Source of the DNA: an uncultured cyanobacterium
GTDB taxonomy: Bacteria > Cyanobacteriota > Cyanobacteriia > CACIAM-69d
DNA length: 64,000 nt
Reading direction: 5' to 3'
Assembly (NCBI GenBank): GCA_937883785.1
Contig: CALGDE010000100.1
Location: 1 to 64,000, forward strand
The translations under genes were made by a program, and so were the position numbers. The notes below the pieces were generated by a model. That model had not been told where the DNA came from. It worked only from the letters and a program-made list of their open reading frames with translations, and made no database searches. Shown in pieces: positions 4,413 through 42,117 of the stretch. The stretch's first letter is position 1. Each line of letters opens with the position of its first letter.

Positions 4413-5165
4413 TTATTCAGCCTCGCCCTCCTCACCTTCTGCTGCTTCCGCTGCCTGCTGCTGCTCCACTAGCTCTGAGGACGACACTGGGGTTAGCACC
4501 TTTAGGTCCAGGGAGGTGGCAATCTTGATCTTCGGCTGACCAGCCGCCACGAGCTGACCATTTTGGGCATCAAAGCGCACCGGTTGGTTAGCCACCGTCA
4601 GCTCTGAATTGATGTTGTCCACCACCAGCAGCGCCTGGTAGCGCTCCAGGTTGCGCAAAATATTGCTGGTTTGGTCAAAATCGCCCTCGAAGGTGACAGA
4701 AACGGTTTGCTCCCGAAGCTTGCCATTTACCGGAGCACCCCAGGCACCGTTGGTTACCACGACAGCGCCTGCCTCATCGGGCTCAAACTTCACCAGACGA
4801 CCAAACTGCTCGGTTACGATTCGGTTCAAATCCAAGGGCAAAGCGGTGGTGGTCTCCTCGCTGGGAAACAGTGCTAGCACTTGCTGTTGCATGCCCTTGG
4901 CTTCATCCAGTTTCTGGAACACCTCTTGCAAACGCTGGCGCTCTTCCGCCACTCGCTCTAGCTGAGCCTCCTTTTCACTCACCTGAGCCTTGAGCTCCTG
5001 GTAGCTTTCATACTTGGGCATTACAAAATTGACGCCCAGGTAAATTGCAGCTCCGATACCGGCGATCGCAATTCCAATCCCTTGGGTGGCCGGGGTCATC
5101 GTAATCCCAAAAACAACGGGATAGTCCGCCCCAAAATCCTCTGCGCCTGCGTTACTTAATGTCAT
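4413..5165 (-). CDS. pilO: Type IV pilus inner-membrane alignment protein PilO
   Basis: Bitopic inner-membrane partner of PilN in the alignment subcomplex linking the PilM/PilC motor platform to the PilQ secretin. One membrane helix lies at about 25-48, followed by a charged coiled coil (about 52-92) and a periplasmic ferredoxin-like region to about 230. The tail is rich in Glu and Ala. Length (250 aa) fits cyanobacterial PilO. A GAGGA ribosome binding site sits about 10 bases upstream of the ATG. The order pilM-pilN-pilO-pilQ with no pilP is usual in cyanobacteria. Confidence 0.9.
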   Translation of the reverse strand: MTLSNAGAEDFGADYPVVFGITMTPATQGIGIAIAGIGAAIYLGVNFVMPKYESYQELKAQVSEKEAQLERVAEERQRLQEVFQKLDEAKGMQQQVLALFPSEETTTALPLDLNRIVTEQFGRLVKFEPDEAGAVVVTNGAWGAPVNGKLREQTVSVTFEGDFDQTSNILRNLERYQALLVVDNINSELTVANQPVRFDAQNGQLVAAGQPKIKIATSLDLKVLTPVSSSELVEQQQAAEAAEGEEGEAE

Positions 5166-27531: not shown

Positions 27532-27851
27532 ATAAAAATTAGAGCAGCAATATTGTGTCTGTGGCTTTGTGAATTGGGACGCTTTTTGGAGTGGTCCCAT
27601 TTTGTTGGCCATGGAGGCGATAGGGCAGGATTTGGGAAATGGCTGAAAGTCTCTTGGGGAAGGCGATCGCTGCCAAAGCATTTTGGGAATTCCCAGTGGG
27701 CTAGGGCTTGTAAACCATGCCGATCGCCATAGTGAACAATGAAGATAATTAATTCTAAAACCCCAAACTAAACTGCAATTAATTGAGTCAAAAGTATTGA
27801 GTCGGTGCTTGGGCGCTAAGGAATTGGCTGACGAGTTTGACTGACGCATCA
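27532..27851. other. gcvH-esterase intergenic region
   Basis: About 320 bp without a supported gene. It contains one HIP1-like site near 27663. No terminator with a clear U tract and no RNA gene were recognised. The esterase promoter is expected here. Confidence 0.3.
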
Positions 27852-28769
27852 ATGGGGTCATCCCGCGGGGCATCTATGACGGCAGCGAACCAACTACTGC
27901 GCTTTGAACGCGGTGAATTAGAGGCAATCATGGGGCACCAGCAGCGATCGACGCAGAAGCAGAATTTTTATTTTTCGGCGGTGGATGATTATCCGGCACA
28001 CCAGTTAGCCCAGTTGTTTCCCGATGCTCGTCCGTTGCGGTTTGTGGGCGATCGCCCCACCAGTAAAACCACCGACACGGCGATTCTTTGCCTCCACGGA
28101 TTTACAGCCATGCCCTACGGTGTGCGTCCCATCGCGGAACAGTGTGCCCGCGCTGGCTTTGACACCTATGCCCCAGTGTTGCCCGGCCATGGCTGGCAAG
28201 ATCCCCAACAACAGCGCCGGGAATTTCCCAAGATCACCATGGAAAAGCTGCTAACTGCGGCGCGCATAGAGGTAACAAAACTGAGAAGTCGTTACAAAAA
28301 AGTGTATGCCTACGGTGATTCCATGGGCGGCGCCCTAAGCTTTGCCTTGGCTAGCGAAGGGTTAGTGGACGCATGCGCGGCAACGGCTCCAGCGTTGAAA
28401 TTGCCCTTCCGCGGCGAGGTGCTTTCCCGCTATTTTGGCTGGCTCAACGTCAATGTGCCGAAGCATATTTCCCAGCGATTTTATGCCCCGTGTTATGAGT
28501 TTGAAAATGCCCGCGCTGGCCGCGCCCTTTGGGAAGTGTCCCGGTACACTCGCGATCGCCTCGACCAAGTTTCCTGCCCCGTCTTTATCGCCCATTCCCG
28601 CAACGATCCCACCATCCCGGCCGAAGCAACGGAAATGGCTCAGAATCGGTGTAAAGGACCGTTAGAAGTGCAATGGTTTGACCTGTCGGGACACGTGCTA
28701 CCGCTGGATATTCAGGGTCCTGAGGTTAGTGAGGCAATTACCGATTTTTTCAAAAGCTTAAAGCTTTAG
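27852..28769 (+). CDS. Alpha/beta hydrolase, esterase/monoacylglycerol-lipase-like
   Basis: About 305 aa. The fold is clear: LCLHGFTAMPYGV (oxyanion HG), VLPGHGW, the nucleophile elbow YGDSMGGALSF (GDSMGG, nucleophilic Ser), an acid in VFIAHSRNDPTIP (Asp) and a C-terminal His in DLSGHVLPLD. It resembles carboxylesterases and monoglyceride lipases. No signal peptide, so it is cytoplasmic. The start is uncertain: ATG at 27852 or 27876, and a TTG at 27837 extends the frame. The caspase-like gene follows 74 bp later on the same strand but appears unrelated. Confidence 0.85.
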   Translation: MGSSRGASMTAANQLLRFERGELEAIMGHQQRSTQKQNFYFSAVDDYPAHQLAQLFPDARPLRFVGDRPTSKTTDTAILCLHGFTAMPYGVRPIAEQCARAGFDTYAPVLPGHGWQDPQQQRREFPKITMEKLLTAARIEVTKLRSRYKKVYAYGDSMGGALSFALASEGLVDACAATAPALKLPFRGEVLSRYFGWLNVNVPKHISQRFYAPCYEFENARAGRALWEVSRYTRDRLDQVSCPVFIAHSRNDPTIPAEATEMAQNRCKGPLEVQWFDLSGHVLPLDIQGPEVSEAITDFFKSLKL

Positions 28770-28843
28770 AGCGCATACAAAACGGAGCTTTTAGGGTGGG
28801 TTAAAGTCGGACCGTTCGTCGTTTTACGACAAGGGTCTCTACA

Positions 28844-31800
28844 ATGCTGCGTAATTTTGCGATTATTATTGGGGTTAACGCCTATGAAAATGGCATCCCC
28901 CCGTTAGAAACTGCGGTGAATGATGCTCAGGCGATCGGGGAGCTATTAACTAAGCAGTATGGCTATCAAGTTCTTTACTTGCTAGATACCAATGCTACTA
29001 ATGCCAAAATATTAGATTGTTTAAGCCAGCTTAAGTCAGGATCTTTGACGCTTGAGGAAGAGTCTATTGTTCTTCAAGAGGCGGACCAAGTTTTATTTTA
29101 TTTTGCAGGACATGGGGTTGCTCGCGACACTTTGGATGAGTCGGGAGCTGGCAGTCCGGCAGGGTTTATTTTGCCCCAGGATGCCAATATTAATCAGGTA
29201 GATTCTGGGCAGAATGGGCAGGGCAGGGCTGATAGTTTTATTGCCATGCAGTTGGTTCACGATGCATTGGTAGACCTTCCCTGTCGTCATTTATTGTTGA
29301 TTTTAGATTGTTGTTTTGCGGGCACATTTCGTTGGGCGGGCACCACTCGCAGCGTGCGGCGATCGCAACAGATTTACAAGGAACGTTTTAAGCGCTTTCT
29401 AAATGGAACTGCGCGGGAAGTTATTACCTCCGCTGCCCATGATGAAAAGGCTCTTGATAGTGCTATTCCGTTAGGAAATCGCTTTCAAGTTGCTGATGGT
29501 AGTCGCCATTCTCCCTTTGCTGAGCGACTGTTGACGGTGTTAAGTGGGCAGGAAAAGGTTTATCGGGATTTATATGCGGATGGGATTATTACTGCCAATG
29601 AACTGTTTGTTTATTTAAACAATACGCTGGCAGATTTAACGGATAAGCAAAAGCCTGGTTTTTGTCAGCTGAAGGGGCACGATAAGGGTGAATATTTATT
29701 CTTGCTGCCGGATTTCGATCCTAAGAAATTGGAACCGGCACCGATATTAACTAAGGCGGCGAATCCTTGGATGGGATTGAAATCCTACGATATTAAGGAT
29801 AAGGATTTGTTTTTTGGTCGCGATCGCGCCCTGGCTGGTTTATTAGAAGCCGTTAAAAATCCGACAACGCTGATTCCGGTAATTGGAATTTCTGGTAGTG
29901 GAAAATCTAGCTTGGTAAAAGCAGGTTTAATTCCTAAGTTGGTGGAAGAGGGCTATCAAGTTATTGGTCCCTGTCGTCCTGGGGAGCGCTGTTTGGAGTC
30001 CCTTAGAATTTCCATTTTGCGGTGGTTAGAGACGTTGGGAGCACCGGCGATCACCCAGCTAAAGCAAAATAATCTTTTAACGTTGCCTAAGAATTGGAAT
30101 CGGGATGCGGGGATCTTTTGGCGGTGGTTGCAACGGGTTGCGGCGAAGGTTAAAACCACTGGAAAGGTAGATATAAAGCAGTGGCTTTTTGCGTTTGATC
30201 AGTTTGAGGAACTGATTACTTTAGATGCCGCTGGGGAAGGGAAAATTTTGCTAGAGTGGCTATCTAAACTGATAGAAATTGCTGCTGAAAAATCCACGGA
30301 TTCTACCCTTAAGATTGTTGCTACCTTGCGTTCAGATTTTGAGGGGCAGTTTCAGGAAGAAATTCTTTCTCGTGAAGATTGGATGGCGTCGCGCTACGTG
30401 GTTCCGGCGTTATCCATGGAGGATATTCGTGACATTGTGACCAAGCCTGCGGCTGAGCGGGTGTTGTATTTTGACCCGCCGGAATTAGTGAATCGGTTGG
30501 TGGAAGATGTGGCGCAAATGCCGGGGGCGTTGCCGTTGTTGTCCTTCGCCCTAAGTGAGCTGTATTGGGATTATTTGGAGGCGGTGAAAACTGAGGAGAG
30601 GAGCGATCGCACCTTGACCCTGGCAGCCTATGAAAAGCTGGGGGGCGTTACGGGGTCTTTAACTCAGCGGGCAGAGTCGGTTTATGGAGGCTTTGACCAA
30701 GAGGAGCAGGAAACGGCTCGGCGAATTTTGACTCGGATGGTGGTGCCCACGGGGGAACTGGCGCGGCGGCGGGTGACCCAGGCGGAGTTGACCTATGGGG
30801 CGGAGGTAAATGAGTTGGTGCAAAAGTGCCTAGGTGCCCTGGTGGCTGGGGGGCTGCTGGTGACTGGGAGGACGGACCGGGATGAGGAATATTTTGAGCC
30901 GGTGCATGATGCGTTGGTGCGTAGTTGGGATCGTTTGGTGAGATGGGTGCGGGAGGATCGGGAAGATTTGTTGTTGCAACGGCGATTAACTCCAGCAGCT
31001 TTGGAATGGCAGGCACAGCCGGATACGTCTCGCTGGTGGGATAAGGGATTGGATAAGAGCGTACGGGGTATTGAGAAAGTTACGGGTTATCTAACCAGAG
31101 GTTGGCGAGAACAAGCTATTAGGAACGAGCAGAAACGTAAGCGTAATAAAGACAAAAGACAATCGGGGCGTGACTTTTTATGGACAACAGAACCGCGACT
31201 TGATTTGTTAGGAAAACTGCTTAAAACACGACGACTTTGGTTTAATGCTGCTGAATCTAATTTCGTTGAAAATAGTCTGTTTCAGCGGCGGCGAAACGTG
31301 ACTTTGCAATGGGCGATAGCCGGAGTCGTTATGGCGACAATAACGATAGCTGGAACTGCCGCCACTTGGGGCTTAATTAATGCAGATATTCGGCGAATTG
31401 AGCAGTATTTAGAATCTGTAGAGTTGAACAGAGAAACTGATGAAAAGAACGCATTAATCTCTGCTATGGCTGCCATGGAAATTTATGATCGCCTTGAATT
31501 TTTAGCTCCGCCTTCCTTGCATAATAAGATGTACGAAACTTTGAGACACCTTGACGATAAACTTCGCCTGCGTGGAATTTTTACTTACCCAGAATCGCGT
31601 AACTCAACTGGGAAGGTTGCCCTTCGATCTGACGGAACTTTCTGGTTGGGCGGGGAGGGGAAGCTTATCCATATGGATTTAAAAGGAGAAGAACTTGGAT
31701 CTGTCACCTTGAAAGATAAAGAGGAGCAACTTATTAGTATTGAGGAACTGGCAATATCTAAAAGCGACCGCCTTGCAGTTGCAGACAGTGAAGGGAGAGT

Positions 31801-33898
31801 GTGGTTATTATCGGAGGATGGCGAAATAGTGACAACTTGGGGGCGCAAAAGCCGGGACCCAATCGCTCAAGATAATAATGGGATTGTGACTAAGATCGAG
31901 TTTGGAATTGACGATATTTTGGCCACTGCTGGAGATGGAGGAATTCTCCGATGGTGGGCACTTAACGATTCTAATGCTAAGGAGAAGAAGGTTGAATTAG
32001 CAAGCCCGGTAAGCAGTCTAGCTATTAGTAGCGACGGCTCCTCAATCTGGCTGGGAAACCAAATTGGTCATATAGGGCAGTGGAGTACTACAGGGCAAAA
32101 ATTAATGGGACTCTACCATTCAAACGTTGATATTTTTTCAACTAAGGTGTTTGGCGATTATATTGAGGCGCTGCTTCCCAAGGATGATGGCACAGTCATT
32201 GTAGGGACACGAGACCAGGTTGTTATGATCTTTCCTAGTGATCTTGAACCTTATTCTCCTCTAACTTCTTCAGATGGGAAAAGGATCAAAAATAAATCTC
32301 TCTCTGAAGTTAGTTTTGATCAAAGCCAAAATTTAGAAAGTGTAGATAAAAATTCAGAAGAGACGGATAATCTTGCCAAGATAACTCCACAGATGCAAAT
32401 TGGAGTCTCAGGATCTTTCATAAGTTTAGAAAGACATTCCCTTGGTACTGAAATAATTGCAATCCCACAGATTAATGGATCTATAAGCTTAGTTCCAGTA
32501 TTTAGTTCGACTTATGTAGATCGTCTTCAAGACACTATTGTTGATCTTGCGGTACACAATGGCACTGTTTCTTCCATGGTTTCTACACTTAGCGATGGAG
32601 AAAAGACTTTAATTTCTGTTGGTCAAGATGGAATTATTCAACACTGGAACATAGGCATACAGGTTGAAGAACGCAAAATTGAAGGATATCCAGAGTGGGT
32701 GGAAATAACATCATCAGACATATTGGGGTACAAATTCCCAAAGGGATCTGCGCCTATTACCAGCATTTTTGCTACAAGTGATGGCACAGCTACTGATGGC
32801 GAGCAAAAAATCTTTGCTGGTAATAGCGAGGGAGATATTTTCGAATGGAACGCAAGAGGAGAGTCAGTTGGAAAGGCGAGGAGCGGGCATATCGGCAAGG
32901 TAACTCACTTAAGATACTATGATAATTCACATAAAGCCGGCAGGTCCGAGATTATTTCTGGAGATGATAGAGGCTCAGTGTGGCGTTGGAATACTTCAGG
33001 TAAAGGGAAAGAGGTGATAAAGCATAGCAATGCAGTTCAGGCACTCAGTGAGCTTGAGGGATTTATTGTCTCATCGGACTCCGAAGGGAACATACAGCTG
33101 CTGAGTCCTGCTGGGCAAAAACAGGAGTGGTTCTACTTTGAGGATGAAAATTCCACTCAGAAGGTAGTGACAGTAGATTTTTACTCATCGGAATATGTCA
33201 TTGCCTTCGATGATCGTGGAGGATGGCGTGTGTGGGATCTGCAAGGCAATTTTAAAAGTGAAGGTAAATTGCCAGGAACAAAGCATGTTACATCATTTGC
33301 ATGGACGCAAAAAGGATTTATTGTTGGGCAGAGAAATGGATCTTGGCAGCACTTTAGTTTTGAAGAAGGACGTGCCGAACTTATTGGCGAAGGTCGAGTT
33401 AAGTCTGGAGCTGTTCGGCTAGTTGACTATGCTGACTATGGTGCTAACTATGCAAAGCTGGCCAATTTTTTTGGATTGACTCAGCCTCCGGCAATAGTGA
33501 CCGTTGATGGGGATAATACGATTCAGTTTTGGGGTGAGGATGGCGTGGTGAAGTGGTCAGTGGATGGTGATTCTCATAATCAGGTAACTGCCCTGTTCAC
33601 TACAGAAGCAGGGAATGTCATCTCAGCTAGTGAAGATGGTTCTATGAACTTATGGATAGATGGAAAAGTCAGAAATTTACAGGATTTAGCGAGTAAGAGT
33701 TGCAAAATTATCAACAGGAGTCGAATCGATCAAGACTTGCGAAGCAATGTTTCTGACACAATTGACTTGTCTGCTTTCGACGAGGCTAAGCGTTTTTGTA
33801 AACGATTGGAGAACGGATTAAAAAATGATTTAGCAGTTGCAGGTTCCAGTAATTGGCAATTAGTGTTTTCTGCTGCGGCTCAGAAAATTGCTGAATAA
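28844..33898 (+). CDS. Caspase-nSTAND-TM-WD40-like giant signalling protein (copy A)
   Basis: 1684 aa. The caspase-fold protease domain is at about 1-290, with the catalytic His90 in YFAGHG and Cys157 in LDCCFAG. A linker (LEPAP) leads to an nSTAND ATPase starting at NPWMGLKSYD, with P-loop GISGSGKSS at 348-356, LFAFDQFEEL as Walker B and the usual TLRSDFEGQF segment. A membrane helix is at about 819-843. The remainder (about 870-1600) is a degenerate beta-propeller with WD-like units such as GDRGSVWRWN. Such proteins are predicted regulated-cell-death or antiphage proteases whose STAND module switches on the caspase. The propeller half is AT-rich compared with the N-terminal half and is poorly conserved with copy B. 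Confidence 0.9.
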   Translation: MLRNFAIIIGVNAYENGIPPLETAVNDAQAIGELLTKQYGYQVLYLLDTNATNAKILDCLSQLKSGSLTLEEESIVLQEADQVLFYFAGHGVARDTLDESGAGSPAGFILPQDANINQVDSGQNGQGRADSFIAMQLVHDALVDLPCRHLLLILDCCFAGTFRWAGTTRSVRRSQQIYKERFKRFLNGTAREVITSAAHDEKALDSAIPLGNRFQVADGSRHSPFAERLLTVLSGQEKVYRDLYADGIITANELFVYLNNTLADLTDKQKPGFCQLKGHDKGEYLFLLPDFDPKKLEPAPILTKAANPWMGLKSYDIKDKDLFFGRDRALAGLLEAVKNPTTLIPVIGISGSGKSSLVKAGLIPKLVEEGYQVIGPCRPGERCLESLRISILRWLETLGAPAITQLKQNNLLTLPKNWNRDAGIFWRWLQRVAAKVKTTGKVDIKQWLFAFDQFEELITLDAAGEGKILLEWLSKLIEIAAEKSTDSTLKIVATLRSDFEGQFQEEILSREDWMASRYVVPALSMEDIRDIVTKPAAERVLYFDPPELVNRLVEDVAQMPGALPLLSFALSELYWDYLEAVKTEERSDRTLTLAAYEKLGGVTGSLTQRAESVYGGFDQEEQETARRILTRMVVPTGELARRRVTQAELTYGAEVNELVQKCLGALVAGGLLVTGRTDRDEEYFEPVHDALVRSWDRLVRWVREDREDLLLQRRLTPAALEWQAQPDTSRWWDKGLDKSVRGIEKVTGYLTRGWREQAIRNEQKRKRNKDKRQSGRDFLWTTEPRLDLLGKLLKTRRLWFNAAESNFVENSLFQRRRNVTLQWAIAGVVMATITIAGTAATWGLINADIRRIEQYLESVELNRETDEKNALISAMAAMEIYDRLEFLAPPSLHNKMYETLRHLDDKLRLRGIFTYPESRNSTGKVALRSDGTFWLGGEGKLIHMDLKGEELGSVTLKDKEEQLISIEELAISKSDRLAVADSEGRVWLLSEDGEIVTTWGRKSRDPIAQDNNGIVTKIEFGIDDILATAGDGGILRWWALNDSNAKEKKVELASPVSSLAISSDGSSIWLGNQIGHIGQWSTTGQKLMGLYHSNVDIFSTKVFGDYIEALLPKDDGTVIVGTRDQVVMIFPSDLEPYSPLTSSDGKRIKNKSLSEVSFDQSQNLESVDKNSEETDNLAKITPQMQIGVSGSFISLERHSLGTEIIAIPQINGSISLVPVFSSTYVDRLQDTIVDLAVHNGTVSSMVSTLSDGEKTLISVGQDGIIQHWNIGIQVEERKIEGYPEWVEITSSDILGYKFPKGSAPITSIFATSDGTATDGEQKIFAGNSEGDIFEWNARGESVGKARSGHIGKVTHLRYYDNSHKAGRSEIISGDDRGSVWRWNTSGKGKEVIKHSNAVQALSELEGFIVSSDSEGNIQLLSPAGQKQEWFYFEDENSTQKVVTVDFYSSEYVIAFDDRGGWRVWDLQGNFKSEGKLPGTKHVTSFAWTQKGFIVGQRNGSWQHFSFEEGRAELIGEGRVKSGAVRLVDYADYGANYAKLANFFGLTQPPAIVTVDGDNTIQFWGEDGVVKWSVDGDSHNQVTALFTTEAGNVISASEDGSMNLWIDGKVRNLQDLASKSCKIINRSRIDQDLRSNVSDTIDLSAFDEAKRFCKRLENGLKNDLAVAGSSNWQLVFSAAAQKIAE

Positions 33899-33979
33899 TG
33901 TCAATTTGGTATTTCAAGAGGCAGGCTGTGAGGCAAGTTAGATTCGGTCCGTCTCCCTGTGCCCGCGACGGTCTCTCCA

Positions 33980-34133
33980 ATGAAGCAGTTTAGTTTTGCG
34001 GTCCAACATCCATAAAAATGGCATTCCCCCGCTAGAAACTGCGGTGAATGATGCTCAAGCTAATGGGGTGACTGCAATTGCCAGCGACTGGCGATCAGCG
34101 TTTCTTGCCATTGTTCAAAAACTAGCTCAGTGA
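33980..34133 (+). pseudogene. Collapsed remnant of a third caspase-WD40 gene (5' and 3' ends joined)
   Basis: Beginning at an ATG (33980) with the same ggtctctNcaatg leader as copy A, the sequence matches copy A codons for about 30 residues (after a one-base frameshift it reads KNGIPPLETAVNDAQA), then jumps straight to the C-terminal end (IASDWRSAFLAIVQKLAQ-stop, compare SSNWQLVFSAAAQKIAE-stop in copy A). About 1,600 codons are missing. Similarity to copy A starts upstream, near 33935, within the leader. This is therefore a deletion product of a tandem paralogue, and it cannot encode a working enzyme. Confidence 0.85.
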
Positions 34134-34159
34134 CTCTGAATTTAGGACCTAATACCATC

Positions 34160-35854
34160 CTATAGAGGAAGGCTAAGGATTTCAGAGGACCGCTCAGTGC
34201 CTTGATCTTCTTGTTTCTGAGCAATTCTAAATGCCCACTGTTGATGATTGCCCAGGCTACTTTTCCATCGCTTCATCATTCCACTGTATGCAGCTCCATC
34301 TTTTGGAAATCGCTGCGATCGCAACACCCGCAGCAGCTGTAAAGCTTTTCCAGATCCAGTTTGAATTCTTCTTTTGCCTTCAGGATTGTTTCTGATTTTG
34401 TCCTCAACATCGCTACTAGGACGGTCGTTCTCCTCCATCGCGGGTAACGGTGACGACCCCTTCACCACAATGATCGGCACGTTGATGCCAACTTCAGAGC
34501 CTTTTTGGGAAATTTTCTCACCGGATCCTCCTTTGGGGATGCTGATGGAGGACGCGATAATTGCCGAAGTGCTGATTTGACTGCGGGGGCGATCGCCACA
34601 GTGAAACCGATCAAGGCAAACAAATAAATCCTGGGCCAGCACCACCGCCGCTGGGGATATTTTCAGGAAGTGGGCGATTGCCCAGCACCAGGTAATCGGG
34701 TCCTGGGCGCTAACCCGTGCCAAAGCCAAGGACGCCGCCGGTGAAGGAGATTGTGGCACCCGATGGGGCGTTGGAACGGTTCTAGGAGGACATTGAGGCA
34801 ATCGCTCTGGGAAATAATCAGTAATTTCTTGGGGGGATGTTCCATGTCCCAGCTGACGATAGTGATGTAAATCTTCCCGAACCGCCTGCCAATAGCACTG
34901 GGAGAATTTCACAAAGTCAAACTTACATTGGCGCATTACCTGTTCAATACGCTCATAGCGCCGCAAACACCAGGCTCGCAGCCGTAGCCAAGAGGGATGT
35001 AAATCGGAACACAGCAGCAGCCCATGGGCACGACGGCGCAAAGTCAGTAAATAATCCCCCACCCAAAATTCCATCAGTTGGCGGTAATTTTCCGTGCCAA
35101 TACAGCTGCCGTCTACCACTGACTCCCGCGTTACGCCAAAGCGATCCAGCAGCTCTGCCGGAAAATAACAAATGCCCTGCTGTAAATCCTCGTGCAAATC
35201 CCGCAGATTGTTATAAAACTGATCCACAATGCCAAAGTGCCGAGCGCAATCCCAATGGTGGGGCTCTAAATAAGGCAAAATTTGGAAAAACGACCCCGCC
35301 AGCCCATCCATCATGGTTTCGTAGTCGGTTAGGGTTTGGATTTCCGTATGGCGGCCATGGTAAAAGGCGATCGCCGACACATAGCTATCCCAGGACTGAA
35401 TCGATAGCCGATCCATTTCTTTTTGGGAAATCTGGAACCACCGCTGGGCGATGCCCTCCAAAATAGAGCTCAAAGGAGCTTCCAAGGATTGGTGAGGCAG
35501 GTCATGAGCTATAAAATCTGTCGCTTTACCAGGCTGAACCGTTCTTAGGCGTTGCCAACTTTGGTAAAACTCGCTGAAGTTGGATGGAAATAACGCGGCG
35601 TCGGTCGTTTCTTCGCTCGCGCCGTTAAAGCTTGCCTCTGTGTAGACCCCTTCTGGGGCGATCGCCGAAATCTGTCCCTTTTCCGCCAAACGATCCACCA
35701 GGCGAATCCAACGAATACGCTCCACCCATTCCCGGCGCTCCCCATCGGGCAGCTCCATCACCCAAGCCGCATTGTCCTCATCCTTTAAGGAATCATCTCG
35801 AACTGCCGCATAGTGTGACGATCCCACCAAGCTTGCTACCAATAGGCTATTCAT
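34160..35854 (-). CDS. Squalene/phytoene synthase-family-like protein with a long C-terminal extension
   Basis: 564 aa. Residues about 40-340 resemble the trans-isoprenyl diphosphate synthase fold: the second Asp-rich motif DQFYNNLRDLHEDLQQG followed by CYFPAELLDRFGV matches squalene/phytoene synthases, and YETMMDGLAGSF matches the preceding helix. The first Asp-rich motif is weak (LVDRLAE instead of DDxxD), so catalysis is doubtful. The last about 220 residues are low-complexity and unrecognised. I start at ATG 35854; GTG 35860 is possible. It lies between the two caspase-STAND genes. A catalytically altered terpenoid enzyme or a binding protein are both possible. Confidence 0.7.
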   Translation of the reverse strand: MNSLLVASLVGSSHYAAVRDDSLKDEDNAAWVMELPDGERREWVERIRWIRLVDRLAEKGQISAIAPEGVYTEASFNGASEETTDAALFPSNFSEFYQSWQRLRTVQPGKATDFIAHDLPHQSLEAPLSSILEGIAQRWFQISQKEMDRLSIQSWDSYVSAIAFYHGRHTEIQTLTDYETMMDGLAGSFFQILPYLEPHHWDCARHFGIVDQFYNNLRDLHEDLQQGICYFPAELLDRFGVTRESVVDGSCIGTENYRQLMEFWVGDYLLTLRRRAHGLLLCSDLHPSWLRLRAWCLRRYERIEQVMRQCKFDFVKFSQCYWQAVREDLHHYRQLGHGTSPQEITDYFPERLPQCPPRTVPTPHRVPQSPSPAASLALARVSAQDPITWCWAIAHFLKISPAAVVLAQDLFVCLDRFHCGDRPRSQISTSAIIASSISIPKGGSGEKISQKGSEVGINVPIIVVKGSSPLPAMEENDRPSSDVEDKIRNNPEGKRRIQTGSGKALQLLRVLRSQRFPKDGAAYSGMMKRWKSSLGNHQQWAFRIAQKQEDQGTERSSEILSLPL

Positions 35855-35860
35855 ATGCAC

Positions 35861-36699
35861 CCATGACCCTGATTCAGCGTTGACTCAGAACAGTGTGAAC
35901 CAGTTCGGCGCTGGCTCTGTGTTTCTACTGAGTCCCTACTAACCAAGAATAATACCAGCGCATCTACATTCACCTCAGTGACTAGGTTTCTGATGATTAC
36001 CCGTCACCAAGCTCGACTTCAGGCAGATGAAACTTTTAAAAGTCTCCTGCAGTCAAGTCTACGTGAATTTACGCTAGATCATTATCCTTGCCGACGATGC
36101 ATATTCTAGCCATAAACGAAGGGTTAACGGCTGGGGGTGTATCCCTCTATCATTTAGCCTTCTAAAAACCTTCGTGTGTTTTTTGTGACATTAACTCCAG
36201 TAAAGTTGCCCAAAGGAAAAAACACATCCAAAAGGGAAGAACAGGTGAGGGCGAGTGGACCCCATCAGCGGCTTAAATCAAAAAGATATCTGGAAAATAT
36301 CTAAAGCTCCAGGCTCAACTCAAAAGAACAAAGCGCTAACTTATGGATCACTCTTTTGATAAGGGGGATGGGGTAAGGGATTTCCGCGCCGTCCAAGGGG
36401 ATTTCCTCAGGGAGAGAAAGCGATGCTGCGCTGCTAAATCCGCTCAATACCGACCGTTGCGTTGCTCTTCGCCAAAGTGAGTTTTATTTGTTGTCGAGGT
36501 GGGCGAGGGGGTGCCCAAAGGTTCACGGTGGAATCAATGGGCAAAAAATGCGCAAACCCCAGTGTGCAAAACAACACGTCTATCGCGTTATGGGGGCTCT
36601 TGCCTTCTGTGTTGGTCCCATGATTTTTTTATAAAAGTTCACCAAAAGACCACTAGAAGCTACCCAGGTTTGTGATCAATCTAGCGTGAGGGGTTTGAA
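35861..36699. other. Long intergenic region between the synthase-like gene and caspase copy B
   Basis: 839 bp with no supported gene on either strand. It is moderately AT-rich to about 36340 and GC-richer after that. A minus-strand frame near 36300-36550 has short in-frame stretches but stops repeatedly and matches nothing I know; it may be decayed. The 3' end of copy B (minus) is at the right edge. No IS ends or RNA genes were seen. Confidence 0.35.
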
Positions 36700-39600
36700 C
36701 TATAAAAATTCGCTTAGTTTTTGATTGCGCACTTCTTCTGAGATGGGATTTCTCCCTCGCTGTAGCTGAATTAGCCAGCGTTCCCACTCCTCTCGTGTTC
36801 GCTTGAGCTCATCTACAAAATACGGGGATGGCTCATTGGGGTCCAGTTGGGGGGCGATCGCCTCCAATTCTTTTTGGGTTAAGTTCTGAGCCTGTTTCAA
36901 ATCCTCAATGCCCCCAAAAAAGTCGCCGCTTAAAATCCGCGCGATCGCCCGAGCATCGTGATAGCGCCAGTTATCGCTCTGGTTGGGGCCAATGGATAAA
37001 TTACACGCATTTAGGATTTTGGCATCCACTTGCCCATACAGCCCGCCAAATCGACACAGCATATGCCAAGCTCGCTTGGGAAATCCAAAATGGGGTGCCG
37101 TTTTCTGAGCTTTTTCATACTCAGCCCACGCGGCGCCAATTTTGCCTGCTCGGGCTAAATGCTTGCCGCGGGTAATCAAGCTGGCGAAAGCCGCCTGACG
37201 ATATCGCAACCGCAGCCGCCGCCAGCGAAGAATCTCTCCGATCTTCTCCCGCCGCTCCTCTTTGGACCAACTTTCGGACGGACCTTGCACAAACTCTTCC
37301 AGCAGCTCCACGGCACGATCAAAATTGCCATTTTTAGCCTCTTCCCAGGCGCTGTTTTCCAAAAACTCCACGCGATCACCTTGGGCTTCCTCCCGTGACC
37401 ACACAATATTTTCGCAGGACTGCGCCGCTTCTTCCCCCGCCGGTCCTTGGGGAAATAAAAACGCTGTATGGGTACGCAGGCGCCGACAAACATGGGCGAG
37501 CCAATCGTGCCAGTCCGTCGGCCACACCCAAATCCGTCCGTCGCGACCGCTGCTAACCAAATCGTGACCGTTGGGGGTAAACGCCAGGGCACGCACGCGA
37601 TCGCCATGCCCCCTTAGTTGTCCCAAAGGACTCCCTTCCTTAGTCCAAAGCCCAATGCGATTGTCATCGCCGGCGGTGGCGAGTAAATTTTGGCGCGGGC
37701 TAAAGGCAATCGCCCACACTGGTCCTCGGTGGGCATGGAGGGGCGATCGGGTGGGCTTACCCGCCAGGTTGTACCACTGAAGCAGACCTCGCTCATTGCC
37801 AACAACAATGAGCTTGCCGTCAGGGGTAAACTTCACCGACAGCAGCTTATCCCCCTGCACCTGGGTTTCAATTTGGCGTATTCGCCGCCCGTTACGATTC
37901 CACAGCAGGGCAAATCCTTCGTCTCCCACGCTGACAAACTGGGTGCTGTCGGGGGAAATATCCACGGCATTAACCACCGCCCGGTGACCAATCAGCGGTA
38001 ACCCCTTCGGTCGTCCATCCTTATCCCAAATCCGCAGCGTATGGTCGGCGCTGCTGGTGACTTTCCATTGGCCGTTGGGGGCGATCGCCACGCCTGTAAT
38101 CCCCTCACCATGGCCGCCGCCGATATCCAGAGCATCGTTGCGGGTGCCGTCTGCCCCCCAAACCCGCAGCCGCTTATCCCCGTTAGGGGAATAAAACCCA
38201 CCGCCGCTAACAATTTTGCGGGTTTCCGGGGCGATCGCCACTGCATTGACTCGACTAGCAGGTTTATCTAGATCTATCCTTCTATTCTCCAGGGGGGGAT
38301 CAATGGGCGCCCCGTACATGGACCACCGTCGCAAGGTGCCGTCCCGTCCCGCCGTCACCACCACGGACAGTTCGTCCTCCCACAGTTCCTCTGGGGAAAG
38401 ATGTCCCTCAAGACGCTCCCGAAAATGGGTCCCATGATTTTTCAGACGCCGCTTTAATTCTTTTGCTTGGTCTTTTGGATCATTTTTGGTCCCCTTATTT
38501 TGGGCATTTTCATCTTTCGCCCTTTCGCCCTCTGCATTGCTGTTCAGTGCCGGCGGTTCCGGTTCCGGCGATTCCGGTCTCGGCGGTAAAGGACGCGCTG
38601 GCGGTTGAATAGCTAACGACAACACTTCCTGCTGAGGCGTTTCCCAGTACCTGCCTAGGGGCACCTGGTCCATGTCCCACAGGTTAATGGCACCGTCTTG
38701 CCCACCGCTAAACAGTAGCTGTCCGTTGCGGCTAAAGGTGGTAGACAGCACATTTCCCTCATGGCTGTATCGAGGCGGAAGGGATCGCTGTCCGTTTAAA
38801 TCCCAAAGCTGAATGGTACCTTCGCTGCTGCCGCTGGTGAGAAATTTCTCCTTGTCGTCAAAGCTTAAGGACGTAACGGGAGCCCGCTGTTCCAGGTGAA
38901 AAGTATTTTTTGTCAGCCCCTTTTTGTGGTCCCACAGCCGCACCGTGCCATCGGTGCTGCCGCTAGCCAATAACTTACCATTGGGACCAAAGGCTAGCGA
39001 TCGCACCCCGCTGTTCGGTTCAAAACTGGGCAATGACTTGCTCTTAGGGGATTCCGATCTGCCATTCAGGGACCACAAAGTAATCTCATCACTGTCAAAG
39101 CTTCCCGACGCCAAAACTGTGCTGTCCTGGGAAAATGCCAGCGCCATGGAAAACGGTAGCGTATCCCTAATAACCTGCCGACGCTTTTTCGCCTTTAAAT
39201 CCCAAATTTCGATTACTCCGGCGGTGTCAGAGACGGTGGTGCTAATGGCAGCATAGTCTCCATCGGAGCTGACCGCCAAAGCCTCAATGCGACCTCGTTG
39301 GGTCAACAGGGGCATTGATTGCACTGGCCGTCCTGTGCGCGTCCACAGGCGCATGCCATCTCGTCCCAGGCTGATAATGTTGTTGCCCCGGTTATAAAAG
39401 GAAACATGACTCACCGAGGAATCATGGGCTTCCAGAGAAAACGTTTGGGCAATGCCTTTGCTATTCCACAGGCGAATGGCGCCGTCAGATTGGCCGGTAA
39501 CAATGATATCTCCGTAGGGGCTTAAAGCCAGGCTGGTCACCAACGCCTCCCGCGACAAGATAGCTCGCCGATCCTCCAGGGGCGCCTGGATGGCATAAAG

Positions 39601-42117
39601 CAAACTGCGGCGAATGGGCAGATCGCTTTCGGGGCGCAGGATCGCCCAATAAGACTTGGTTTCGCTGGCAGCCCCCAACGCCATCAACACTCCCTGGGCC
39701 GTATCGGTGCCCAGCGCCAATTCCGCATTGGAGCTTTTTTCCCGCACCCTTGCCCGCCATTCTTCCAGACGTGCCCCACAGAAGGAAAAGGCGATCGCTG
39801 TCAGCACCCCTGCACTCGCTAAAAATCCCCATCGCCACAGGGTTTGATTACGGACAACGCTAGCCCGGGCAAAAGCCGCTTCCTGGCGATTAAACCATCG
39901 CACTCCGGGAGGAGCCTTGAGGGTTTGGGATAGCAGGGGCAGTCGGGGGTTTTTTGACCATAAATACCGCCGGGAATACTGGTGCTGTTCCCACTCGCGA
40001 ATGGCGGGCTGTAAAAGCCGGTGCAGGGTCATTTGCTCCCGTGCCTGCTGTTGCCACTCCCGCAGTCGCTGCCATCCAATGACCAGGGCGTCGTGGGCAG
40101 GCTCAATATAGGTACTCCCATCCAGCTCGGTGCCTTGCACAAACAGGCGAGCGCGCACAAATCGCGCCAAAATTTCATCAATGCGATCGCGATCATCCTG
40201 CTGTTCGTATTCCAGCTCCCGTAAGTTCACCCGTCGCTTGGCTAACCCCGCCCCGCCGTTGGAACTAACCGTTCGCAGCAGCACATGGCACAGGGTGTAG
40301 GCATATAGGGGATCCTGGGCAATCAGGTCATCACATTCAGCGTCGGCGCGCCGGGCAAGGGATGTGGCTACGCCGCCAATGGTTTCATAATCGTCCAGGG
40401 TGATGGCGCGATCGCTACGATTACCGGACCGGGTGGCCGTTAAAAACGCCAAATACAGCTCACTTAGGGCAAAGGACAGCAGGGGCAGCGACCCGGTGGT
40501 TTGGGATACCTCATCAATCAGCCGGTCCACCAAGTCTGGCGGGTCAAAATAAATGGCCCGAGCGGCGGCCGGCTCTAAAATGGCAGCCTTTAGCTGGGAC
40601 CGTCCCATCACCGGCACCACAAAGCGCCCGTCGTTCCACACCGGCTGCAATGGGGACTCCACAAACTGGGGCTCAAAGTCAGAGCGCAGGGTCAAAATTA
40701 TCCGCAAATGGTCGGGCCAATCCTGCAACAGTTTCATCAAGGTGCTCAAAAATCGCCCCTTGACGTCCTCTTCTACCTTGGCAGGATCCGGCGTTGCGTC
40801 GGTCATGGCTCCCCGCGCCCGATCCTCGCTTTGGGTCACCAGCTCCTCACACTGGTCAATTACCAGCAATAGCTTGGGCGGCTGTTGCTCTTTGCTGGCG
40901 CTAGGGTTGTTTTTTACCTGCGATCGCCACTCCCGCTGTAGCTCTTCCAGGCGTAGCTGCAACGCCACGCTGCCCGCCTCCCGCGACGCCACATCCACCG
41001 CCTGCCCATGGCTGCCTAACAGCACCAGGTTAAATGCGCAAAAGGGATCTTGCCCCGGTCGCATGGGCTCTAGCACCGTCCAGTACCCCTGGTCCTTGAG
41101 CCGAGGCAACAGCCCGGCTTTGACCAAGCTGGACTTACCGCTGCCCGACGCCCCTAGCACCACCGTCAGGGAATGCTTCTCCACAAACTTGCCCAGTTGC
41201 TCAATAACCTTTTGCCGCCCAAAAAATAAATCGGCGTGCTGTTCATCAAAGGCCTCCAAGCCCCGGTAAGGGTTATTGCGCTTGTTTAGGGGCGGCGCTG
41301 GCTCCAGGGATTTCGGGTCAAACCCGGGCACCGTAAATACAAATTCCCCTTTGTCATGTCCCCGCAGCTGGCTGATGCCTGGCGTTTGACCGTTGGTGGC
41401 TTTCCCTAGCTCCGTATTGAGGTACACATACAGCTCCGTCGCCGTCGTCACCCCATCCTGGGATAGATCCCCTTTCCCCAACAGCGCTTCCATCAACAAT
41501 TCGGCGAAGGGAGAATGGTGGTTCCCATCTCCCGCGCGATCGCCAAACCGAGACAGCACATCCAGCGCCTTTTCATCGTGGGCTGCCGACGTAATGACCT
41601 GTTTGGCATTGCCCCGCAGAAACCGATCAAACCGTTCCCGGTACATGCGCTTTGACGGCATTGCTTTGCGGGTAAGCCCCGCCCAACGGAAACTGCCCGC
41701 AAAGCAACAATCCAACACCACCAGCAAATGTTTACAGGGCAGCGCCACTAGGGCATCGTGCAGCTCCTGCATCGGCAGGAACGTATTTTCCTCGGTGGTG
41801 GCATCCTGGGGGATGGCGTAACCAATGGGACCGTCGGCACTATCGGCGCCATCCAACGCGATACCGTGACCGGCGAAATAAAAGAAAAACCGTGTTTTTG
41901 CGGTGACGTTTTCTTTCAGGTAAAACAGCGCCTTGCGAATACCGTCAGCGGTGGCGTCTCCATCGCACAGCACCTGGGTGCGATAGCCAAAATTGTCTTC
42001 CAGCAACGTGGCGATCGCCCGCGCATCATTAACGGCACTACGCAGGGGAGGAATACCACCGCTGTAGGCATTAATGCCAATAATCAGAGCCTGGAGATCG
42101 TCTAGGGCAGCGGGCAT
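36700..42117 (-). CDS. Caspase-nSTAND-TM-WD40 giant signalling protein (copy B)
   Basis: 1805 aa. Caspase domain at about 1-270 with His84 (YFAGHG) and Cys138 (LDCCFAG). The nSTAND domain begins NPYRGLEAFDE, with P-loop GASGSGKSS at 322-330, LLLVIDQCEEL and TLRSDFEPQF. One membrane helix is at about 757-780. Fourteen WD units can be counted (patterns GTVRLWD, GTIQLWD, GAINLWD, HTLRIWD), enough for two seven-bladed propellers; a Pro/Glu/Lys-rich insertion of about 80 residues separates unit 7 from unit 8. A helical C-terminal region of about 250 residues follows. Unlike copy A, the propeller is regular and GC-rich. Predicted cell-death or defence protease. The gene faces copy A tail to tail. 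Confidence 0.93.
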   Translation of the reverse strand: MPAALDDLQALIIGINAYSGGIPPLRSAVNDARAIATLLEDNFGYRTQVLCDGDATADGIRKALFYLKENVTAKTRFFFYFAGHGIALDGADSADGPIGYAIPQDATTEENTFLPMQELHDALVALPCKHLLVVLDCCFAGSFRWAGLTRKAMPSKRMYRERFDRFLRGNAKQVITSAAHDEKALDVLSRFGDRAGDGNHHSPFAELLMEALLGKGDLSQDGVTTATELYVYLNTELGKATNGQTPGISQLRGHDKGEFVFTVPGFDPKSLEPAPPLNKRNNPYRGLEAFDEQHADLFFGRQKVIEQLGKFVEKHSLTVVLGASGSGKSSLVKAGLLPRLKDQGYWTVLEPMRPGQDPFCAFNLVLLGSHGQAVDVASREAGSVALQLRLEELQREWRSQVKNNPSASKEQQPPKLLLVIDQCEELVTQSEDRARGAMTDATPDPAKVEEDVKGRFLSTLMKLLQDWPDHLRIILTLRSDFEPQFVESPLQPVWNDGRFVVPVMGRSQLKAAILEPAAARAIYFDPPDLVDRLIDEVSQTTGSLPLLSFALSELYLAFLTATRSGNRSDRAITLDDYETIGGVATSLARRADAECDDLIAQDPLYAYTLCHVLLRTVSSNGGAGLAKRRVNLRELEYEQQDDRDRIDEILARFVRARLFVQGTELDGSTYIEPAHDALVIGWQRLREWQQQAREQMTLHRLLQPAIREWEQHQYSRRYLWSKNPRLPLLSQTLKAPPGVRWFNRQEAAFARASVVRNQTLWRWGFLASAGVLTAIAFSFCGARLEEWRARVREKSSNAELALGTDTAQGVLMALGAASETKSYWAILRPESDLPIRRSLLYAIQAPLEDRRAILSREALVTSLALSPYGDIIVTGQSDGAIRLWNSKGIAQTFSLEAHDSSVSHVSFYNRGNNIISLGRDGMRLWTRTGRPVQSMPLLTQRGRIEALAVSSDGDYAAISTTVSDTAGVIEIWDLKAKKRRQVIRDTLPFSMALAFSQDSTVLASGSFDSDEITLWSLNGRSESPKSKSLPSFEPNSGVRSLAFGPNGKLLASGSTDGTVRLWDHKKGLTKNTFHLEQRAPVTSLSFDDKEKFLTSGSSEGTIQLWDLNGQRSLPPRYSHEGNVLSTTFSRNGQLLFSGGQDGAINLWDMDQVPLGRYWETPQQEVLSLAIQPPARPLPPRPESPEPEPPALNSNAEGERAKDENAQNKGTKNDPKDQAKELKRRLKNHGTHFRERLEGHLSPEELWEDELSVVVTAGRDGTLRRWSMYGAPIDPPLENRRIDLDKPASRVNAVAIAPETRKIVSGGGFYSPNGDKRLRVWGADGTRNDALDIGGGHGEGITGVAIAPNGQWKVTSSADHTLRIWDKDGRPKGLPLIGHRAVVNAVDISPDSTQFVSVGDEGFALLWNRNGRRIRQIETQVQGDKLLSVKFTPDGKLIVVGNERGLLQWYNLAGKPTRSPLHAHRGPVWAIAFSPRQNLLATAGDDNRIGLWTKEGSPLGQLRGHGDRVRALAFTPNGHDLVSSGRDGRIWVWPTDWHDWLAHVCRRLRTHTAFLFPQGPAGEEAAQSCENIVWSREEAQGDRVEFLENSAWEEAKNGNFDRAVELLEEFVQGPSESWSKEERREKIGEILRWRRLRLRYRQAAFASLITRGKHLARAGKIGAAWAEYEKAQKTAPHFGFPKRAWHMLCRFGGLYGQVDAKILNACNLSIGPNQSDNWRYHDARAIARILSGDFFGGIEDLKQAQNLTQKELEAIAPQLDPNEPSPYFVDELKRTREEWERWLIQLQRGRNPISEEVRNQKLSEFL

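Follow-up and report, generated by a model that had tools for sequence, protein, structure and literature searches.

How a short stretch of DNA can carry both the beginning and the end of a large gene, joined to each other, is the question raised by positions 33936-34133 of the window, as the whole 64,000-nucleotide stretch analysed here is called. The segment follows an intact gene, copy A (28844..33898, plus strand), whose 5055-nt frame runs without internal stops and encodes a protein of 1684 residues. Pfam assigns to this protein, in order, a caspase domain (Peptidase_C14, PF00656, 8.8e-15), an nSTAND1 domain (PF20703, 1.2e-90) and a WD40-type beta-propeller matched by several beta-propeller families; the match to the PADLOC 'caspase' model is limited to the domain. 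From this architecture, together with the literature (PMC7159879, PMC2853523), the protein probably couples NLR-like sensing to killing or defence. Within 84,980 species genomes its relatives were confined to G001, a fragmented metagenome-assembled genome (MAG) of an uncultured cyanobacterium and the only congener compared, and one distant STAND protein. Upstream of copy A lies an alpha/beta hydrolase gene (27837..28769, plus strand; PF00561, 4e-16), the orthologue of which is found at the edge of G001 contig C298. On the other side of the segment is a convergent squalene/phytoene synthase gene (34160..35860, minus strand; PF00494, 1.6e-15), with an orthologue on G001 contig C231.

The first part of the segment is a copy of the front end of copy A. 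Its leader (33936-33979) aligns locally with the leader of copy A (28800-28843), and ggtctctNcaatg falls within this match, so the upstream region had been duplicated as well, as the earlier note on this DNA had proposed. Taken by itself (28800-28846 against 33936-33982), the leader alignment scores 15, compared with 7.0 +/- 1.3 for shuffled sequences, a score equalled by one shuffle in 2000. The leader is followed by a start codon (33980-33982) and by what appears to be the first 32 or so codons of a lost caspase paralogue, interrupted by an indel (33980..34068, plus strand; delimited by frame translations). Identity reaches 84% over the 64 nt between 34005-34068 and 28877-28940 of copy A, and the combined alignment of leader and 5' part (28778-28982 with 33915-34108) scores 132, around 20 standard deviations above shuffles (27.9 +/- 5.1). 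The frameshift claimed in the earlier note is also present: codons 8-12 or thereabouts are disrupted in a way compatible with an insertion of 1 nt or with a deletion of 11 nt, and under either reading the ATG frame closes after 11 codons.

The remainder of the segment (34069..34133, plus strand) comprises about 21 codons and a stop (34131-34133), and corresponds to the last 20 codons and stop of copy A (33836..33898, plus strand). Over the final 63 nt, stop included, the two tails agree at 39 of 63 positions (62%), ungapped and in register, where random windows give 15.7 +/- 3.6; over 20 amino acids the BLOSUM62 score is 41, against -9.8 +/- 9.1 for shuffles. The direct join to the last codons and stop of copy A thus holds, and both ends of the segment are homologous to those of copy A in the same order and on the same strand. 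Inspection of the junction itself (34068/34069) revealed no obvious repeat that would suggest a mechanism. An unrelated caspase gene does not match equally well: the second caspase gene of the window (36700-42117) reaches a DNA score of 16 with the 5' part, as opposed to 47 for copy A, a protein score of 65 as opposed to 88, and a tail score of 17 as opposed to 41. The weak point of the proposed kinship lies in the tail, where the local DNA score is only 19 for copy A but 38 for the antisense strand of nadE in the same genome and 36 for the tail of a caspase gene in G001.

The nadE match emerged from a search of the organism's own 4.8-Mb genome with the remnant, which returned, besides copy A, a single further significant match. 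Positions 34061-34134 are 77% identical over 75 nt (E 1.7e-7) to G000:C67:3131-3204 on the minus strand, a site that coincides with the 3' end of nadE on its antisense strand. The gene is identified as an NAD+ synthase gene by NCBIfam NF010588 (752 bits, cut-off 479). The earlier interpretation, in which a tandem paralogue left a deletion remnant, was therefore right in outline but missed the origin of the tail. There is no nadE near the remnant, as in this genome nadE stands alone on contig C67, and beside it on that contig no caspase traces were detected except the antisense of nadE itself. A dispersed repeat of about 50 bp, GATCGCTGACTGTTCTACTAATTCAAGAGTC..., with some 35 matches in the genome, is found downstream of nadE (L042:3468-3518, on contig C67); as a link to the window it was ruled out, being absent from the window.

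The congener reveals how a caspase gene may come to end in nadE. On G001 contig C722 a caspase-nSTAND-WD40 frame ends at 4863 on the plus strand and nadE ends at 4784 on the minus strand, giving a convergent pair with an 80-nt overlap, so that the last 24 or so caspase codons are antisense nadE. The remnant tail is 79% identical to the tail of this overlapping caspase gene (G001:C722:4793-4858), with which it shares its frame, and it agrees with the copy A tail in both frame and stop. The G001 gene, of approximately 4.9 kb, starts directly at a contig edge; a search of the other G001 contigs failed to find its 5' end, the only match being at that edge. The caspase and nadE frames each contain one break (L043, that is G001:C722, 4141-4144 and 5239-5258), possibly MAG assembly errors, and these breaks, along with the fragmentation of the MAG, count against the interpretation favoured here.

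Copy A ends in GSSNWQLVFSAAAQKIAE, and this tail also matches the nadE antisense translation, with BLOSUM scores over 20 residues of 37 for its own genome and 42 for G001 that beat nearly all shuffles. Scores of 20-25 (p <= 0.001) are obtained with the nadE antisense of outgroups G003, G004 and G013; the match is weak in G002 and none was found in G005. That even outgroup sequences match indicates an ancestral caspase gene whose end lay within nadE. Conservation of the nadE C-terminus, AFGxGWRMPIA, extends to other genera and families, as seen in seven genomes of other genera, and this conservation across the class marks nadE as the source and the caspase tail as derived. In several outgroups the antisense strand, read in the caspase frame, encodes S-x-W-R-S-A-F....Q and has its stop at the equivalent position. 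As DNA, the tail of copy A and the nadE antisense have no recognisable match, and the restriction of the similarity to 20 residues of protein, and not in every outgroup, is a further argument against the favoured reading. It is here that the remnant is of value, since it matches the nadE antisense as DNA and the copy A tail in register and so provides the link between the two.

That the similarity between caspase tail and nadE antisense is convergent or coincidental could be argued from copy A alone, the tail of which lacks a DNA-level match; yet the E-value of the remnant in a 4.8-Mb genome and the physical overlap in G001 make coincidence hardly credible. It is likely, on the sequence comparisons, that a caspase-STAND-WD40 gene gained its C-terminal 20 or so codons from the antisense strand of nadE, and that descendants residing away from nadE, copy A included, keep this tail in register as protein. 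As the remnant tail is nadE antisense, the ancestral gene would have stood tail-to-tail with nadE at another locus. Within 1.5 kb of nadE in other genera there was no convincing match to a caspase gene, and the literature offered nothing useful on convergent overlaps that arise by loss of a stop codon.

The closer resemblance of the remnant tail to nadE antisense (77%) than to the copy A tail (62%), and the survival of the supposed second gene as its ends only, could also be accommodated by a recombination junction in which a caspase 5' fragment was joined to an antisense fragment acquired straight from the nadE locus, without a full second tandem gene ever having existed. Against this, the tail shares its frame, register and stop with the copy A tail and its frame with the caspase tail of G001. 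Moreover, the homology to nadE weakens just beyond the stop codon, with no run-on into nadE, and the 5' section includes a homologous leader. Such a junction is therefore unlikely. Deletion within a full-length tandem paralogue is in much better agreement with these features, and the segment 33936-34133 is likely the non-coding remnant of a caspase-nSTAND-WD40 gene from which a large internal part was deleted. This gene and copy A would both descend from a caspase gene that ended in nadE antisense.

The order in which the deletion and the relocation took place can be considered from the surrounding locus. On G001:C231, which corresponds to 34160-36221 of the window, the 3' end of the squalene synthase gene is adjoined not by a caspase gene but by a dehydrogenase-like gene, presumably of a sugar-dehydrogenase-like family. 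The orthologue of this gene in the organism's own genome is located elsewhere, at G000:C113:97-1353, some 97 bp from a contig end. The locus differs between the lineages as a result, and the squalene synthase locus, as judged from gene order, is rearranged in one of the two. The second caspase-nSTAND1-WD40 gene (36700-42117) has a G001 orthologue at 78% DNA identity and is beside squalene synthase in both genomes. Since G001 does not share the junction at which the whole unit lies, a copy already without its middle might have moved in together with copy A; this is quite improbable, as it finds no direct support and requires the same deletion plus the movement of both units. An intact tandem caspase pair, which would favour deletion after tandem duplication, was absent from the genomes compared, and this too stands against the preferred reading; in the sole congener the caspase copy begins at a contig edge and the squalene synthase locus holds another gene. 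A further point against the preferred reading is the shortness of the remnant, which offers too little sequence for a tree of its two halves.

The history favoured here would begin with a caspase gene convergent to nadE that read past the nadE stop codon into the antisense strand, from which its last 20-24 codons would derive, an arrangement that is still present in G001. A copy with leader and tail would then have moved between the alpha/beta hydrolase and squalene synthase genes, where the relocated unit would have been doubled in tandem. One tandem copy would subsequently have lost its middle, joining the gene start to the last 21 or so codons, and the tail would persist as a fossil that is still clear in the remnant and has diverged in copy A. 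We infer the order of duplication, relocation and deletion from the present arrangement. A single deletion would most simply explain the one final junction that survives, and some 4.8 kb would have been lost, provided that the missing copy equalled copy A (5055 nt) or the G001 gene (about 4.9 kb) in length.

The remnant is most likely dead. Six of the ten differences from copy A in the 5' part are at first or second codon positions, which, although the sample is small, fits a loss of constraint, and with the ATG frame closed after 11 codons no caspase fragment should be made; the lack of any product is deduced from these features. A frame open from TTG codons does cross the junction to the stop and might suggest a functional short peptide, or a regulatory RNA, encoded by the segment. 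This frame has no ATG, however, and the early end of the ATG frame, the preponderance of differences at codon positions 1 and 2 and the absence of the joined sequence from all other genomes searched render a function very improbable.

Cyanobacterial caspase-WD40 (metacaspase) genes occur in several copies per genome, with lineage-specific duplications, and for Nostoc 7120 and Anabaena variabilis adjacent copies are suggested by consecutive gene identifiers (BMC Genomics 2010, PMC2853523). The genes described here resemble these in fusing a caspase to WD40 repeats and in being multi-copy, but one of the two adjacent copies consists of first and last codons only and the tail is nadE antisense. 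Overprinted antisense genes (PMC4683798, PMC5810103; reviewed in PMC7457138) are likewise coding sequences that arose on the strand opposite an existing gene. Those, however, are whole genes embedded in another, whereas here only the C-terminal 20-24 codons are antisense to a convergent neighbour, which is nearer to short overlaps of a kind described in the review as well known. The nadE-derived sequence would, in addition, have persisted at a new locus after the overlap was gone. As a pseudogene the remnant is ordinary: it does not differ in any essential respect from other internal-deletion pseudogenes, in which gene start and end are kept, the middle is lost and a functional paralogue is adjacent. 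What is noteworthy is the tail: the remnant would be an independent fossil of how the opposite strand of a housekeeping gene supplied the end of a protein, and it could be compared with a sister species in which the two genes still overlap. In this way the remnant may record birth, movement and loss in a fast-changing NLR-like gene family.

Copy A also carries the signature of a separate event. Over its caspase-nSTAND half (28919-31333) it is 91% identical in DNA to G001:C722:2-2416 (L043), and this similarity breaks off sharply ahead of the WD40 part, within a hydrophobic stretch that probably spans the membrane; the WD40 part itself has only 25-49% amino acid identity. In bins of 100 codons, synonymous divergence between copy A and the G001 gene ranges from 0.13 to 0.41 over codons 101-800. 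The corresponding values are 0.80-0.97 for nadE, 1.44 for squalene synthase and 1.10 for the second caspase gene, in which no exchange signal is seen. The low divergence of the caspase-STAND part and its abrupt end suggest that this part of copy A was likely exchanged or converted between lineages, with the WD40 part left out.
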